Shown: piece after piece, positions 14,505 to 36,578 of the stretch
Layout of the letters: every line of letters begins with the position of its first letter
Position numbering within the stretch: the stretch's first letter is position 1
From: Bdellovibrio sp. GT3
GTDB taxonomy: Bacteria; Bdellovibrionota; Bdellovibrionia; Bdellovibrionales; Bdellovibrionaceae
NCBI RefSeq assembly: GCF_037996765.1
Contig: NZ_JBBNAD010000005.1
Location: 280,001-344,000, forward strand
Direction: 5' to 3'
DNA: 64,000 nucleotides
The notes under the pieces: model-generated
Databases searched by the model: none
Told to the model about the DNA's origin: nothing
What the model saw: the letters and a program-made list of their open reading frames with translations, nothing else
Position numbers and translations under genes: made by a program

Positions 14505-14524
14505 TGAGAGCAGTTTTGCTCTCA
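14505..14524. promoter_or_regulatory. Palindrome upstream of TIGR02147 gene (site 1)
   Basis: TGAGAGCA-GTTT-TGCTCTCA, 8-bp perfect arms, lies 45 bases before the TIGR02147 start and 12 bases after the LysR stop. The same half-site GAGAGCA recurs in the palindrome after the gene. It could be an operator, or a terminator for the LysR gene. Confidence 0.6.
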
Positions 14525-14568
14525 AAATTATTCTTTACAGCGCTTCTAAGGTGCGCGGTAATTGTCGA

Positions 14569-15405
14569 ATGACCAAGACTGCACCAAAGAAACCACTATT
14601 AAGAGACTACCTGAATATAGCTTTCTTTCTTCATGACCTTTATCAGTACCGCAAGGCAACTGAAGAACAGTTTTCTTACGAAACCTGGGCCCATGAACTT
14701 GGTTTTCAACATCGGTCATTTCTTCGTCAAGTGGTCATTGGTCGTCGCGCGCTGACGGACACAACAGCCAAACAAATTTGCGAGCGTCTTTTCTTTACTC
14801 AGGCCGAGCAAGAGCACTTTATGATTCTTACCCACTATTCCAGAGCGCGCAGTTCACGGGAACGGGAAGCTTTCGGAAAAAAGCTGATTCAGCTACTGGA
14901 ACAAAACTACTATCAAAATGAAATCGAAGCCTCTGAGGAGTTTGTCAGCACTCCACTGATTCCCCGCCTGCAAGCCCTGCTTAGTTTGGGCGATGATGCA
15001 AAGACGGCGGAAGCACTGGCGCAGTTCTTAAATGCAGACTCATTACAAGTCGCAAAAGGACTGATGATTTTGACCAAACTGGGACTGGCAGAATCTACCC
15101 CTGATGGTCACAAAGCGACGGTCAGCAATTTCAAGGTCCCGAACAACCTTGGAAGCCAAGCACTTTTGGAATATCACAAACAAAGCCTGCAAGAGGCGAT
15201 TGATGCACGCACCCTTCCCCATCATTTGCGCCGCTATAAAAGCATGATTCTGCCGATGTCCCAGGAGGAATTTGATTCATTCCTGAAGAACATGGATGGT
15301 TTCGTGAAAGAACAGCTGCATAAATTTGACACCCCAAAGACAACCGGTCGCCGTTTGTTTCAAGTGAACTTGAACCTGTTTTCAGTCAGCGAGGAACTCT
15401 CTTAG
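14569..15405 (+). CDS. TIGR02147 family protein (DUF4423), putative transcriptional regulator
   Basis: A 278-residue protein of the TIGR02147 family, abundant in Bdellovibrio and Fibrobacter. Residues about 10-90 form an HTH-like N-terminal domain (LRDYLNIAFFLHDLY ... FSYETWAHELGFQHRSFLRQVVIGRRALT ... ICERLFFTQAEQEHF). The rest matches the DUF4423 part, with a winged-helix-like block (AEALAQFLNADSLQVAKGLMILTKLGLAEST) and an RRLFQVNLNLFSVS ending. The ATG at 14569 is preferred over a start six codons upstream. Palindromes sharing one half-site flank the gene on both sides, and an exported-protein gene follows on the same strand. DNA binding is inferred, not shown. Confidence 0.85.
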   Translation: MTKTAPKKPLLRDYLNIAFFLHDLYQYRKATEEQFSYETWAHELGFQHRSFLRQVVIGRRALTDTTAKQICERLFFTQAEQEHFMILTHYSRARSSREREAFGKKLIQLLEQNYYQNEIEASEEFVSTPLIPRLQALLSLGDDAKTAEALAQFLNADSLQVAKGLMILTKLGLAESTPDGHKATVSNFKVPNNLGSQALLEYHKQSLQEAIDARTLPHHLRRYKSMILPMSQEEFDSFLKNMDGFVKEQLHKFDTPKTTGRRLFQVNLNLFSVSEELS

Positions 15406-15406
15406 C

Positions 15407-15428
15407 TTGAGAGCAATTTTGCTCTCAA
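15407..15428. promoter_or_regulatory. Palindrome downstream of TIGR02147 gene (site 2)
   Basis: TTGAGAGCAA-TT-TTGCTCTCAA, 10-bp perfect arms, begins two bases after the TIGR02147 stop codon. It shares GAGAGCA/TGCTCTC with the site at 14505. A terminator function is possible but the stem is AT-ended and lacks a T-run. Confidence 0.6.
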
Positions 15429-15533
15429 ACCTGTAGTTTCAGACAAAAAATTTCATTTCGTTCATACCTTGTTCACGGAAATTTTGCCCAAAACTTAGCA
15501 AGTAATTGAATTTACTATTCAGCCCTCCTTGGC

Positions 15534-15566
15534 TTGGGTATTGCTTCCTTCACAGAGCAAACCCAA
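15534..15566 (+). other. 5'-UTR stem-loop before an exported-protein gene
   Basis: TTGGGT-A-TTGCT pairs with AGCAA-ACCCAA, an 11-bp stem with one bulged base and a ten-base loop. It lies about 60 bases before the start codon at 15625, in the 219-base gap after the TIGR02147 gene. Confidence 0.4.
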
Positions 15567-15624
15567 AACTCAAGGCCTTCCCCGCTTCGGCGTGCTCTGC
15601 GAGTTAACTATACAGAGGTAGAAA

Positions 15625-16080
15625 ATGAAAAAGGTGATCGTAACTCTATTGGTGTCCCTAATGTCGGTTGCAGCATCAGCGACTGGCGGCCAAATCGGTT
15701 CAGGCAATGTGGGCTTGAAAATTGGCGACTTCGCTAACTCATATATCGTAGCTCGCCTGGCGATTGAAGGGCCTTACTATGTTGCCCAATTTGAAGTAAA
15801 CGGTAATGGCGACACCGTCATCTTCCGCGATGCAAATATGGATGCGGCTAGAGATAATCAGGACTGCGTCGGTAAAAATATCAATCTGAAGAACAATATT
15901 TTACAAGTTAGCGTAAATTGCAAAAGCCTGGGCAATGCTCCGCTGAGCTTTGAAATCGACGTCAAAGGCTTAACCAAAGCAGACCTTGAAAAAGGCGCGA
16001 AGGTTAACGTTCGCAGCGATGCCACCGGCGGCGAATGGTTCCCTTTTGATATCGTTAAAAGAAATAAGTCGTTCTTTTAG
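15625..16080 (+). CDS. Small exported protein of unknown function
   Basis: A 151-residue protein with a Sec signal peptide (MKKVIVTLLVSLMSVAASATG, cleavage near residue 20). The mature part is small, with many beta-prone stretches and two cysteines (QDCVGK and VNCKS) that could form a disulfide bond. I recognise no family. CAGAGGTAG lies before the ATG. It follows the TIGR02147 gene after a palindrome and a leader hairpin, and ends in a strong terminator. Secretion to the periplasm or beyond is likely; the regulator next door is the best clue to its control. Confidence 0.75.
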   Translation: MKKVIVTLLVSLMSVAASATGGQIGSGNVGLKIGDFANSYIVARLAIEGPYYVAQFEVNGNGDTVIFRDANMDAARDNQDCVGKNINLKNNILQVSVNCKSLGNAPLSFEIDVKGLTKADLEKGAKVNVRSDATGGEWFPFDIVKRNKSFF

Positions 16081-32786: not shown

Positions 32787-32819
32787 AAAAAAGGGCAGAT
32801 TCAATCTGCCCTTTTCTTT
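32787..32819. terminator. Bidirectional terminator
   Basis: GGGCAGAT-TCA-ATCTGCCC flanked by six A and by TTTTCTTT, between convergent genes. Its edge overlaps the stop codon of the minus-strand gene. Confidence 0.92.
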
Positions 32820-33873
32820 AGTTTCCAATTGGATTTGGTTCAAATCCCATCTCGCCCCAAGACATTCTCTGAAATGGCAAACGAATCACTTTGTACCATG
32901 GTTCGCGGTACTGCTCGACTTTTAAGGAACCTGGATCGTAGGTCCACTTGTTATTGATCTTCGTCGCTGAGAACGCGATAGACATCTTGAAATCATTGCT
33001 ACGAAGAAGAATGTTCGTTTTAAACAAGCACGAGTTGGAGATGTTCCCAATCAGCTTCACTTTGATTTTCGTGTCGCTGTCGCTGAATTTGTCCCAATGC
33101 AGATTATAAAGAACTGAACCCGCTGGTTTTTTGCTGATCAAATCCAAATCCGGAATTGGCAATACTGGAATTGGAATCGAATAGCGATAGCACATCGCCT
33201 CGTCAGCGACCGCTTTAGTGATATCAATCAAATCATCGCCCACTTGCAGGATCACTTCAGGATAAGCCGTGTAAACGTCTTTAGTGAAGACCATCGCAGA
33301 AACATCTTTGCTCCATGGAAGAAGTGGAGTCACAGAAGTTTTGGTTTGCACCAACATGGAGATACGAACCCCCAGCAGGTCCAACTCTTCATGGGAGTAA
33401 CCACCGTGGTGATGACCGAACTCATGGATCAGGATCGCAACTGCTTCAGCAATTGAAACCGCTGAATATTCGCCATCTGCATTTTTGCTGTAAAGAAGAT
33501 CCGAGTTGATATAAATCGGTGAACCCGGCGTGCTGCCCGTTTTTGCAACGCGAACCAAGCCGTCGATAATGAAGAAGCCCGGAGTTTTCTTTTCAGAACC
33601 AAAGTACAACATACGGCCTTTGATTTCTTGTGGAAGAGTCTTGGCGATTCTTGCGATGATCTCACGCTCACGTGAACTCAATTTGCAACCGTCTGATGTC
33701 AGGCAAACTTCGATGTAATTTTCCAAACGCTCGTATGCGAAAAGAACGTTCTTTTCAGCAATACCGCCACCGTTGCCAATCCAGTCACTTCCAGGACCCG
33801 CAAATGCGCTGGCAGACACAGTCGCCAAAGCCAGCATTAGCGCGCTTTTCAGGGTTTTAGTTAAATTAAACAT
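32818..33873 (-). CDS. Exported zincin-like protein (HEFGH motif)
   Basis: A 351-residue exported protein. The signal peptide ends near residue 25 (SASAFA). The zinc motif His150-Glu151-x-x-His154 (HEFGHHHGGYSH) is followed by His161, as in zinc metallopeptidases, although the third-ligand spacing is not exactly that of metzincins. The C-terminal 120 residues are beta-rich. Catalytic activity is plausible but not certain. The ATG at 33873 overlaps the end of the TIGR02147 gene by eight bases, with GGAGG inside that gene, so the two are translationally coupled and the regulator probably controls this protein. Confidence 0.8.
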   Translation of the reverse strand: MFNLTKTLKSALMLALATVSASAFAGPGSDWIGNGGGIAEKNVLFAYERLENYIEVCLTSDGCKLSSREREIIARIAKTLPQEIKGRMLYFGSEKKTPGFFIIDGLVRVAKTGSTPGSPIYINSDLLYSKNADGEYSAVSIAEAVAILIHEFGHHHGGYSHEELDLLGVRISMLVQTKTSVTPLLPWSKDVSAMVFTKDVYTAYPEVILQVGDDLIDITKAVADEAMCYRYSIPIPVLPIPDLDLISKKPAGSVLYNLHWDKFSDSDTKIKVKLIGNISNSCLFKTNILLRSNDFKMSIAFSATKINNKWTYDPGSLKVEQYREPWYKVIRLPFQRMSWGEMGFEPNPIGN

Positions 33874-34633
33874 TTTGCTCCTCCGCAGAGTTCTCAAGCT
33901 TCGTTAACGGAAATAATAGAAACGAGAGTGTGTAAACCTCAGATAACGGCCCGTCTTGTAGCAGATCCTCGATCTTTTTTCGAGTTTTTAATAAGATATC
34001 AGTCACCTCAGGGATTTTCTTGGGATTTACCGCCATAGTCATCGAGTTGAACAAGCGTGTATCGATCGAATCCCTATGGAGTGATTGCTCTGCTAAGTGC
34101 AAATTCTGGTTGTGGTACTTGCGTATTGCAGCTGACGGGACATCTTTCAATAGTATGGGTTTCGTTGTTCTAACCAAGCGATTGCGACTTTTTTTCAAAA
34201 GCTCCAACCTGAATAAACGCTCTAGTGCGTCCTCCGCCTCTGCTTCCTTAATCCCCAGGCGTTTTGCAATCCATTGAGGATGTGCTTTATTGGTAGGTAT
34301 CTGCGCCAGATTCATTATTGCCATATAATACCAATCAGAAATCATTCGGAAGGTATCTTCCTTCAGCAACAAGTCCTTATCTATTTCAATTTTTGTGGAG
34401 CCTTGTCTGTACTCTGCCCACAACAGCTCTCTCTCTAATGGAGATAGTAACAGGCGTTCCATCACTTTCTCCAAGTTCGTCTTCGAAAGAGATCTTCTTT
34501 CACCCATTACATCTGACAATGTGGTCGAACCAACTCCCAGATCACGCGCGAAAGCCCGTAATGAATACGACGAATTCCGGGTTTGCCGCTTCGCCAGTTC
34601 CTGCATCAATAGACTTTTTATAGTGATATCCAT
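33866..34633 (-). CDS. TIGR02147 family protein, second copy
   Basis: A 255-residue paralogue of the gene at 14569. The N-terminal HTH-like domain reads SYSLRAFARDLGVGSTTLSDVMGERRSLS and aligns with both other copies; the DUF4423-type remainder carries PQWIAKRLGIKEAEAEDALERLFRLELLKKS and the SMTMAV block seen in the family. The start at 34633 is preferred, since an upstream extension would cross the operator area. Two 7- to 9-bp palindromes lie 41 and 67 bases upstream, between it and a divergent exported-protein gene. The downstream overlapping gene encodes an exported zincin. Confidence 0.85.
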   Translation of the reverse strand: MDITIKSLLMQELAKRQTRNSSYSLRAFARDLGVGSTTLSDVMGERRSLSKTNLEKVMERLLLSPLERELLWAEYRQGSTKIEIDKDLLLKEDTFRMISDWYYMAIMNLAQIPTNKAHPQWIAKRLGIKEAEAEDALERLFRLELLKKSRNRLVRTTKPILLKDVPSAAIRKYHNQNLHLAEQSLHRDSIDTRLFNSMTMAVNPKKIPEVTDILLKTRKKIEDLLQDGPLSEVYTLSFLLFPLTKLENSAEEQNV

Positions 34634-34673
34634 GCACCCTATATAGACACAAAACTCTAATAACGCAACATCT

Positions 34674-34690
34674 CGGGACACTTTGTCCCG
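34674..34690. promoter_or_regulatory. Operator-like palindrome A
   Basis: CGGGACA-CTT-TGTCCCG, perfect 7-bp arms with 3-base spacer, 41 bases upstream of the TIGR02147 start at 34633. Confidence 0.75.
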
Positions 34691-34699
34691 ATTTGTTAG

Positions 34700-34720
34700 A
34701 ACGGGACACATTGTCCCGTT
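34700..34720. promoter_or_regulatory. Operator-like palindrome B
   Basis: AACGGGACA-CAT-TGTCCCGTT, perfect 9-bp arms. It shares GGGACA-N3-TGTCCC with palindrome A and its centre lies 28 bases further on. It lies 100 bases before the divergent start at 34821. Confidence 0.75.
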
Positions 34721-34820
34721 CGGGGTCTAGACAACCCTTTTGAACCGGAATATCTACTGGCCCATACCGCAGCGGCGGAAAAGTAAACGATTAACAAAAC
34801 AATCCTTAAGGAGGATTAAA

Positions 34821-35315
34821 ATGAAAAAAGTATTCTTGGCGATCGCAATGGTTCTTGGTGTTTCTCAAGCTCACGCATACACAGCTCCGGCATGGGCTTG
34901 TAACCTGAACTTCAAAGGTACTGCTTCTGGTATCAAAGTTATCCTTGGTCACTACCAATACAACGGTAAAGGGACATTGGCTTGTATGTCTCCAACAGGT
35001 CAGACTGCTGAATACCCAGTAACTGTTACAATGAAAGCTAAGCCTTTCTCTCCACAAATCGCATTGGGCAAAATGGAATTGACGGGTCAAGCGGCTGAAA
35101 TCGCTCTTTTCGATTCTAACCCTGAATCCATCCTTGGTACTTACTACGTGGCACAAGCTCAAGGCGCAATCCTTGGTGGCGTTGGTGTTATCACTGCGAC
35201 TCGCGTAGATCTTCCAACAATCGCTCTTAAAGTGTCTTTCCAGTTCGCTAAAGGTTTCGGTGTAAACCTTGGTGTTAACAGAATGGAAATCGCACTAGAT
35301 CAAGACCGTAACTAA
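34821..35315 (+). CDS. Exported protein of unknown function
   Basis: A 164-residue exported protein with a signal peptide (MKKVFLAIAMVLGVSQAHA). The mature part is beta-rich with repeated patterns such as VTVTMKAKPFSP, IALGKMEL and GAILGGVGVITATRVDLP, and two cysteines near the N-terminus (WACNL and LACMS). I recognise no family. AAGGAGG is nine bases before the ATG, which fixes the start and suggests strong expression. It is divergent from the TIGR02147 gene, with two palindromes between, and ends in a terminator. Confidence 0.75.
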   Translation: MKKVFLAIAMVLGVSQAHAYTAPAWACNLNFKGTASGIKVILGHYQYNGKGTLACMSPTGQTAEYPVTVTMKAKPFSPQIALGKMELTGQAAEIALFDSNPESILGTYYVAQAQGAILGGVGVITATRVDLPTIALKVSFQFAKGFGVNLGVNRMEIALDQDRN

Positions 35316-35352
35316 TTCATTGAAGAATTGGAAAGCGTGAATCTCAAAAAAA

Positions 35353-35380
35353 CCGGGGACTTTAACCTCCCCGGCTTTTC
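35353..35380 (+). terminator. Intrinsic terminator
   Basis: CCGGGGA and TCCCCGG form a stem around an eight-base loop, with A-run before and CTTTTC after. It lies 37 bases beyond the exported-protein stop. Confidence 0.85.
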
Positions 35381-35492
35381 CTTCCCGAGATTTATTTTAA
35401 ATTTATTAACCGAAATGGTGATGAAAATGTTCACAGAACTGTCCGGAGAGGCGCTCGCCCTTCCTAATTCAATCAAATACAAAGAGTTATAT

Positions 35493-35852
35493 ATGGTCCA
35501 ACCTTTAAACAACGGTACATTTCCGGATTACCGAGACTTATTAAAAGAAAAATTTGCTGCAGAGAAGGCAAAGAAATACTCGTTCTCTCTGCAATACTGT
35601 GCGGATAGGCTTCAGGTATCGAAAACTTTCGTGAAGCTTGTTTTTGACAAGAAAAGACACTTCTCCATGGATACACTTCCTCGCCTTTGGGATCTGTTCA
35701 AGTTGACTCACAAGGAACGTCTGCATTTGACATTCTTGTTCTGTCACACAATCTCAGACAGCGATTTGTTGAAAAACCAATTCGCCCTTGTCATGAAAAA
35801 TGTAGAAAATGAAACGTTAGTGGTTTCTGACGCTACACAAGTCTCGTATTAG
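35493..35852 (+). CDS. Short TIGR02147-like protein with only the N-terminal domain
   Basis: About 119 residues from ATG 35493. The region YSFSLQYCADRLQVSKTFVKLVFDKKRHFSMDTLPRLWDLFKLTHKERLHL aligns with the HTH-like N-terminus of the two full-length family members in this window. The DUF4423-type C-terminal domain is missing. The start is uncertain: a Met at 35415 is also in frame, whereas the full open stretch from 35328 runs through a terminator and is excluded. A 7-bp palindrome and an L,D-transpeptidase gene lie immediately downstream on the same strand, repeating the regulator-palindrome-exported-protein arrangement. Confidence 0.7.
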   Translation: MVQPLNNGTFPDYRDLLKEKFAAEKAKKYSFSLQYCADRLQVSKTFVKLVFDKKRHFSMDTLPRLWDLFKLTHKERLHLTFLFCHTISDSDLLKNQFALVMKNVENETLVVSDATQVSY

Positions 35853-35873
35853 CCTAGGTCCACCTCGGTTTTT

Positions 35874-35889
35874 TGTACGCAAGCGTACA
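35874..35889. promoter_or_regulatory. Operator-like palindrome before the L,D-transpeptidase
   Basis: TGTACGC-AA-GCGTACA, perfect 7-bp arms, 41 bases before the transpeptidase start. A second, smaller hairpin (GTGGGT ... ACCCAC, 35892-35910) follows it. Confidence 0.65.
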
Positions 35890-35930
35890 CTGTGGGTAAG
35901 TTAAACCCACTCAAAAAATTGAGGTGCGAC

Positions 35931-36578
35931 ATGAAAACAAGCCATCACATAACATGTTTTAGCCTTTCCCTGCTGTTACTAGTGGGGAATTATGCGCAAG
36001 CGGAAGAGTCCACATACATCGATGATGACCGCATTCCTAACATGCTCGAAGATATCGACCCCTTTGATCCCAATGTTGAACAAGTGCTGGATCATTACGA
36101 TAAAATCTATGAACAAGAGACCGGGAAATCCGCTCACATCAATACTGTGATGGATGACATCCTTGGACCTTTTGCAGGTTGCCGACGTAACGCTTGTGCC
36201 GTTTGGGCCCAGGTTGTGAAAAGCTCACAGCGCATGTACCTTTACGTGAACGGAAGTTTACGAGGTTCATGGAAGGTTTCGACCGGTATGAAGGGGTACG
36301 GGACACCAAATTTTGATCGCCATCCAAACGGTCGCATCTACGATCGCTATACTTCTTCAAAATATCCAGAAGGTGACTACAACGGACTCGGCAATATGCC
36401 ATACGCGGTGTTTATCACTGGTGGCTATGCCTTACACGGCACTCCACGTGGCAATTGGCCTAAGCTAGGTACACCAGCATCTCATGGTTGCATCCGTATG
36501 CACCCAGATAATGGGTATACCTTCAACCGCCTGGTAAGATCCTATGGCATCAGCCGGGTTTGGATAACTGTACAGTGA
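35931..36578 (+). CDS. Exported L,D-transpeptidase (YkuD)
   Basis: A 215-residue exported enzyme that cross-links or edits peptidoglycan, or attaches proteins to it. The signal peptide ends near residue 26 (AQA). The YkuD domain shows MYLYVNGSL, HGTPRGN and the active-site block SHGCIRM with the catalytic Cys. The order and spacing of catalytic His and Cys are normal. GAGGTG lies seven bases before the ATG at 35931. In a predator such enzymes could modify the prey or bdelloplast wall; that is inference. Upstream lie a palindrome and a short TIGR02147-like gene. Confidence 0.92.
   Translation: MKTSHHITCFSLSLLLLVGNYAQAEESTYIDDDRIPNMLEDIDPFDPNVEQVLDHYDKIYEQETGKSAHINTVMDDILGPFAGCRRNACAVWAQVVKSSQRMYLYVNGSLRGSWKVSTGMKGYGTPNFDRHPNGRIYDRYTSSKYPEGDYNGLGNMPYAVFITGGYALHGTPRGNWPKLGTPASHGCIRMHPDNGYTFNRLVRSYGISRVWITVQ

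Follow-up and report, generated by a model that had tools for sequence, protein, structure and literature searches.

Within the 64,000 nucleotides of the Bdellovibrio sp. GT3 genome analysed here (the window), three genes resembling TIGR02147-type regulators adjoin perfect palindromes and genes of exported proteins. The arrangement raises the question of whether the palindromes are private operators of paralogous regulators, as a sequence-only reading of the window had proposed. The window also contains the class A RNA of RNase P (2932-3313, minus strand; Rfam RF00010, 225.6 bits).

Family membership and domain architecture

The three genes, designated R1, R2 and R3, and their neighbours are arranged as follows.

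14569-15405, plus strand: R1, TIGR02147/DUF4423 regulator of 278 amino acids with an XRE-type helix-turn-helix (HTH) and a winged helix
15625-16080, plus strand: R1 partner, a small exported protein with a signal peptide and the mature N-terminus GGQIGSGN
32818-33873, minus strand: R2 downstream partner, overlapping the stop codon of R2, with a signal peptide, the N-terminus GNGGG and a zincin-like HEFGHH
33866-34633, minus strand: R2, TIGR02147/DUF4423 regulator of 255 amino acids
34821-35315, plus strand: R2 divergent partner, an exported protein of 164 amino acids with a signal peptide and no assigned family
35493-35852, plus strand: R3, a relative of the HTH half only, 119 amino acids; upstream in-frame starts exist
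35931-36578, plus strand: exported YkuD L,D-transpeptidase with a signal peptide (PF03734, 65.5 bits)

All three genes had been assigned to the TIGR02147 family, but the assignment holds for two of them. R1 and R2 score 96.4 and 93.8 bits against TIGR02147 (curated cut-off 50), and 102 and 141 bits against DUF4423 (PF14394; gathering score 30). R3 matches only the N-terminal half of the TIGR02147 model (positions 7-114) and, with 31.9 bits, is not a member; it has no DUF4423 match at the gathering score of 30. The exported nature of the neighbours was confirmed at all three genes by signal peptides on 15625-16077, 32818-33873, 34821-35312 and the YkuD protein at 35931-36575. The R1 partner matched no Pfam or NCBIfam family, and the R2 downstream partner gave only a weak match to Peptidase_M48.

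A profile of 50 family members matches the HTH of HigA and of lambda repressor (E 7e-5 to 1e-3, positions 12-90), as well as a winged helix of the ArsR/MarR type, and by profile comparison R1 and R2 appear to carry an XRE or lambda-repressor-like HTH. Structure prediction from three sequences yielded a mean pLDDT of 54, with only the helices in 5-60 confident. None of the papers searched mentions TIGR02147 or describes a function, operator or target for the family. A DUF4423 protein, Bd3700, is listed as up-regulated during growth in prey (PMC12546842).

Palindromes at R1 and R2

Each regulator had been described as sitting beside a perfect palindrome. Such palindromes are present at all three genes, but R1 and R2 have two each rather than one. 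The promoters of both genes listed or mentioned below are consensus matches read by eye.

14505-14524: putative R1 operator, copy 1, TGAGAGCAGTTTTGCTCTCA, ending about 10 nt 5' of a TTTACA box (14534-14539)
15408-15427: putative R1 operator, copy 2, just 3' of the R1 stop codon, in an enhancer-like position for the exported-protein gene
15530-15545, plus strand: sigma54-like -24/-12 promoter of the R1 partner, TGGC-N7-TTGCT, a sequence match at equal distance in four orthologues
15567-15605, plus strand: hairpin in the 5' leader of the R1 partner mRNA, AACTC..CGCTTCGGCG..GAGTT, kept in loci L061-L064
34674-34690: putative R2 operator, copy nearer R2, CGGGACAnnnTGTCCCG, 5 nt 5' of a -35-like TTGCGT (minus strand, 34663-34668)
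34702-34718: putative R2 operator, copy nearer the divergent gene, CGGGACAnnnTGTCCCG, 9 nt 5' of the -35-like box of that gene
34728-34733 and 34751-34756, plus strand: -35-like TAGACA and -10-like TATCTA boxes of the divergent gene

R2 occurs in 8 of the 24 genomes of the genus, namely its own and seven others with 64-79% identity. The closest named relative in a scan of genome contigs comes from a Bdellovibrio sp. MAG (71% identity, one locus), and a viral scan found no relative. The perfect palindrome CGGGACAnnnTGTCCCG stands twice between R2 and the divergent exported-protein gene, and both copies occupy the same places in all eight R2 genomes, with one mismatch in two of the second copies. 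Across the 24 genomes the exact motif is found in precisely the eight genomes that contain R2, at R2 loci only, while a reversed control pattern has 0 matches. The arms of the palindromes are invariant in 27 of 28 alignment columns; for the rest of the intergenic alignment the figure is 32 of 154 (p=9e-15). The divergent partner lies beside R2 in seven of the eight orthologous loci.

The palindrome TGAGAGCAnnnnTGCTCTCA is present on both sides of R1 (14505-14524 and 15408-15427), in the form TGAGAGCAn4TGCTCTCA, 5' of the gene and again directly past its stop codon. The orthologues in L062-L064 share 61-66% identity with R1, and GAGAGCAn3-4TGCTCTC flanks the gene on both sides in 4/4 orthologues, with a spacer whose length is the same at the two sites of a genome, 4 in two genomes and 3 in the other two. 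All 16 arm columns of copy 1 are invariant among the four, against 23 of 93 columns elsewhere (p=6e-9); for copy 2 the figures are 14/16 and 44/180 (p=8e-7). In the 24 genomes the motif is confined to R1 loci and two unrelated places in other genomes, exact matches with no family gene nearby, and the reversed control pattern again has 0 matches. Copy 1 precedes a putative promoter with a -35/-10 spacing of about 18-19 nt. In the four orthologues copy 2 and the -24 element TGGC-N7-TTGC are 112, 112, 112 and 111 nt apart, and the intervening DNA shows merely 37-46% ungapped identity. The same exported partner follows in 4/4 orthologous loci. Hairpins resembling that of its leader are found in relatives L066 and L076 with variable stems; the leader hairpin has no Rfam match.

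Half-sites and recognition helices

Within a subfamily of R1-like regulators the half-sites vary and track the recognition helix: GAGAGCA, GTGnGCA, GTGYAGC and GTGCTCY accompany the helices QHRSFLRQ, TN[RK]SFLRQ, SRSFLRM and SRSY[LV]RM, respectively. Covariation of half-site and HTH, which the sequence-only reading had put forward as a test, is upheld in this subfamily by a partial Mantel test controlling for C-terminal divergence (r=0.46, p=6e-4, n=14 genes; r=0.33, p=0.017, n=11 for distinct genes only), with half-sites partly picked by eye; an automatic search agreed in 12 of 14 cases and preferred a different site at L079 and L090. Across much of the subfamily the site lies 8-11 nt 5' of a box of the TTTAC/TTTGA type, and in its remaining members no clear site was seen. 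At L084 the gene downstream of an R1-like regulator appears, by eye, to encode a subtilisin-like exported protease.

R3 and the predicted leader of the L,D-transpeptidase gene

R3 is found at this locus in 5 of the 24 genomes. L,D-transpeptidase homologues are present in 23 of 24, mostly without R3. The perfect palindrome on the R3 side, TGTACGCnnGCGTACA (35874-35889), lies between the two genes.

35858-35930, plus strand: predicted RNA leader of the L,D-transpeptidase gene, in which the palindrome 35874-35889 forms one inner hairpin

In the outer stem of the predicted leader CACCTC pairs with the Shine-Dalgarno sequence GAGGTG of the transpeptidase gene. The fold has a minimum free energy of -33 kcal/mol (z=-4.3), its outer stem is kept in all five R3 genomes, and 86% of its cells are paired against 30-56% in slid controls. 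Two pairs have changed on both sides among four distinct sequences, a covariation not above that of shuffles (79/500). By inspection the fold is absent upstream of transpeptidase orthologues without R3, and the leader has no Rfam match. The palindrome might instead be an operator of R3 after all, since it sits between R3 and an exported neighbour and its exact copies occur at R3 loci only, in two genomes; it is perfect, however, in just two of the five orthologous loci and is nested in a longer conserved structure, and we regard an R3 operator as unlikely. The palindrome is more likely part of an RNA leader, as judged from the predicted fold, and would thus stand outside the regulator-operator scheme.

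The family in the genus and the phylum

The 24 genomes of the genus contain 2-45 TIGR02147 matches each, with 32 matches (about 28 genes) in the GT3 genome, and of 114 genomes sampled from the phylum, 98 contain a family match at E 1e-10. The comparison covered 176 family genes and, as controls, 261 genes in 20 stretches positioned blind to the family; related genes were counted separately, which renders the p-values of these comparisons somewhat optimistic. Perfect palindromes with arms of at least 7 within 120 bp upstream were found at 29 of 176 family genes (16%) and 16 of 261 controls (6%; p=7e-4). The enrichment of palindromes near other members, without which the sequence-only reading would have been refuted, is thus present by a narrow margin and modest: against intergenic-matched controls p is about 0.05, and identical palindromes recur in just 3 of 90 clusters. 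A family-wide palindrome rule was rejected on these grounds. TGTTTCAN5TGAAACA, a candidate for a third private operator, was likewise rejected, with four of its seven matches at family genes and the others elsewhere. Elsewhere in the GT3 genome (contig C1, 72251-73824), the perfect palindrome GGTGTCCCCTCAAGGGACACC lies between two tandem TIGR02147 genes, L014 and L019.

The pairing of regulators with exported proteins proved general and stronger than had been claimed. Exported neighbours accompany 85% of family genes against 36% of controls; by a crude signal-peptide caller, they make up 93 of 112 downstream neighbours (83%) against 52 of 160 in controls (33%), and 49 of 77 divergent neighbours against 24 of 81. 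The downstream neighbour overlaps the regulator in 65 of 112 cases against 43 of 160 in controls. Many exported partners (L003-L254) are rich in Gly and Asn just past the signal peptide, often with a degenerate zincin LHE, and none of those scanned matched a Pfam family above its cut-off. In the genus, GN[GP] or NGG within 30 residues past the hydrophobic core was found in 50 of 96 exported downstream partners and 5 of 92 controls (p=2e-13, overstated by the post hoc selection of these patterns from the partners themselves); one of the five control matches itself adjoins a family gene. Divergent exported partners show the motif in 2 of 51 cases, and outside the genus, in further genera and families of the phylum, all 14 coupled partners read contain GN there. 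The new findings on this point are that partner and regulator overlap in most cases and that many of the partners have a Gly/Asn motif directly past the signal peptide.

Proposed mechanism and alternatives

The conserved sites, their exclusivity to regulator loci (with two unrelated exceptions for R1) and the tracking of half-site and helix in the R1 subfamily support operators at R1 and R2. The proposal of private operators of paralogues is strongly supported for these two by orthologue footprints, occurrence across 24 genomes and helix covariation, whereas at R3 an RNA leader fits better. The palindromes of R1 and R2 very probably serve the adjoining regulators as private operators. We consider it likely that R1 and R2, though not R3, are one-component regulators in which an XRE/lambda-repressor-like HTH and a winged helix are followed by a DUF4423 segment at the C-terminus, and that each would bind, as a dimer, the private palindrome at its own gene and control that gene together with the adjoining exported-protein gene or genes. 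The C-terminal part may sense a signal. For the majority of family members a single site would be enough, the regulator and the exported protein being encoded in one operon of two overlapping genes. R1 and R2 are probably activators, at least mainly, given where the sites lie: 5' of -35-like boxes at R1 and at the two divergent promoters of R2, and, for the R1 partner, 111-112 nt 5' of its sigma54-like promoter. Points that weigh against this scheme are the -35/-10 spacing at R1, the modest enrichment of perfect palindromes in the wider family and, for a sigma54 promoter, the missing AAA+ match in R1.

Autorepression is the usual mode of XRE-type proteins with operators at their own gene, and lambda repressor and HigA are among the matches of the family HTH profile; bound as dimers, R1 and R2 could keep their own promoter and that of the partner blocked, to be released by a signal. 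The sites, however, lie 5' of the -35-like boxes and not over them, and at R1 one site is separated from a sigma54-like promoter by 111-112 nt, so that we hold autorepression to be somewhat unlikely. A fixed spacing from a -24/-12 element, here 111-112 nt, is what enhancer sites typically show and would also suit palindromes bound by some other protein (a sigma54 enhancer-binding protein at R1 copy 2), the TIGR02147 genes being mere members of its regulon. Such a protein is very improbable given that the motifs are found essentially only beside R1 and R2, tracking their presence by genome, and that changes in half-site go with changes in the TIGR02147 recognition helix. A role as RNA hairpins is not readily reconciled with the R1 and R2 palindromes either: it is the sequence of their arms that is conserved, no compensatory changes are seen, and three of the four copies are located 5' of -35-like boxes. 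This reading does fit the palindrome of the L,D-transpeptidase leader, with its structure and its nesting round the Shine-Dalgarno sequence, and R1 copy 2 comes after a stop codon, but for R1 and R2 we find it extremely unlikely.

With private operators of R1 and R2 as the preferred reading, the combination of regulator and secreted protein suggests a repeated, self-contained module across the phylum. A bolder version, in which the TIGR02147 genes of Bdellovibrionota form one system of two-gene modules with a private operator, a coupled exported partner whose mature N-terminus bears a Gly/Asn (GN) tag recognised by the system, and R1-type members acting at a fixed enhancer distance on sigma54 promoters without an AAA+ domain, strikes us as quite doubtful. 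A widespread and undescribed regulator family gains its first testable operators and targets, and its members travel with exported proteins, many of which share an N-terminal motif. In predatory bacteria, where a genome may contain as many as 45 family matches, these would provide a way to study the switching on and off of individual exported proteins.

Relation to known systems

R1 and R2 exceed the curated cut-offs of TIGR02147 (Fsuc_second) and DUF4423, whereas R3 is a partial relative only. The leader beside R3 resembles anti-Shine-Dalgarno leader RNAs in placing its palindrome in a fold predicted to sequester the ribosome-binding site, but differs from them in having no Rfam match. A search of an anti-phage library gave no meaningful match. 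Sigma54 enhancer-binding proteins share with R1 copy 2 the enhancer distance to a -24/-12 promoter; R1 differs from them in that no Pfam or NCBIfam match to the AAA+ sigma54-interaction domain was found in it, and without a recognisable domain of this kind R1 would be unable to drive a sigma54 promoter alone. In ImmR-ImmA an XRE repressor is coupled to a zinc peptidase, and R2, likewise of the XRE type, overlaps the zincin-like gene downstream of it. Most partners here, however, have a degenerate HExxH, and the R2 partner differs from a cytoplasmic zinc peptidase in its signal peptide, because of which it should not cleave a cytoplasmic regulator. The XRE autoregulators lambda repressor and HigA are similar to R1 and R2 in the HTH fold, by profile, and in having palindromes at their own gene; R1 and R2 are set apart from them by the added winged helix and DUF4423, the coupled exported-protein gene and the 2-45 matches per genome.
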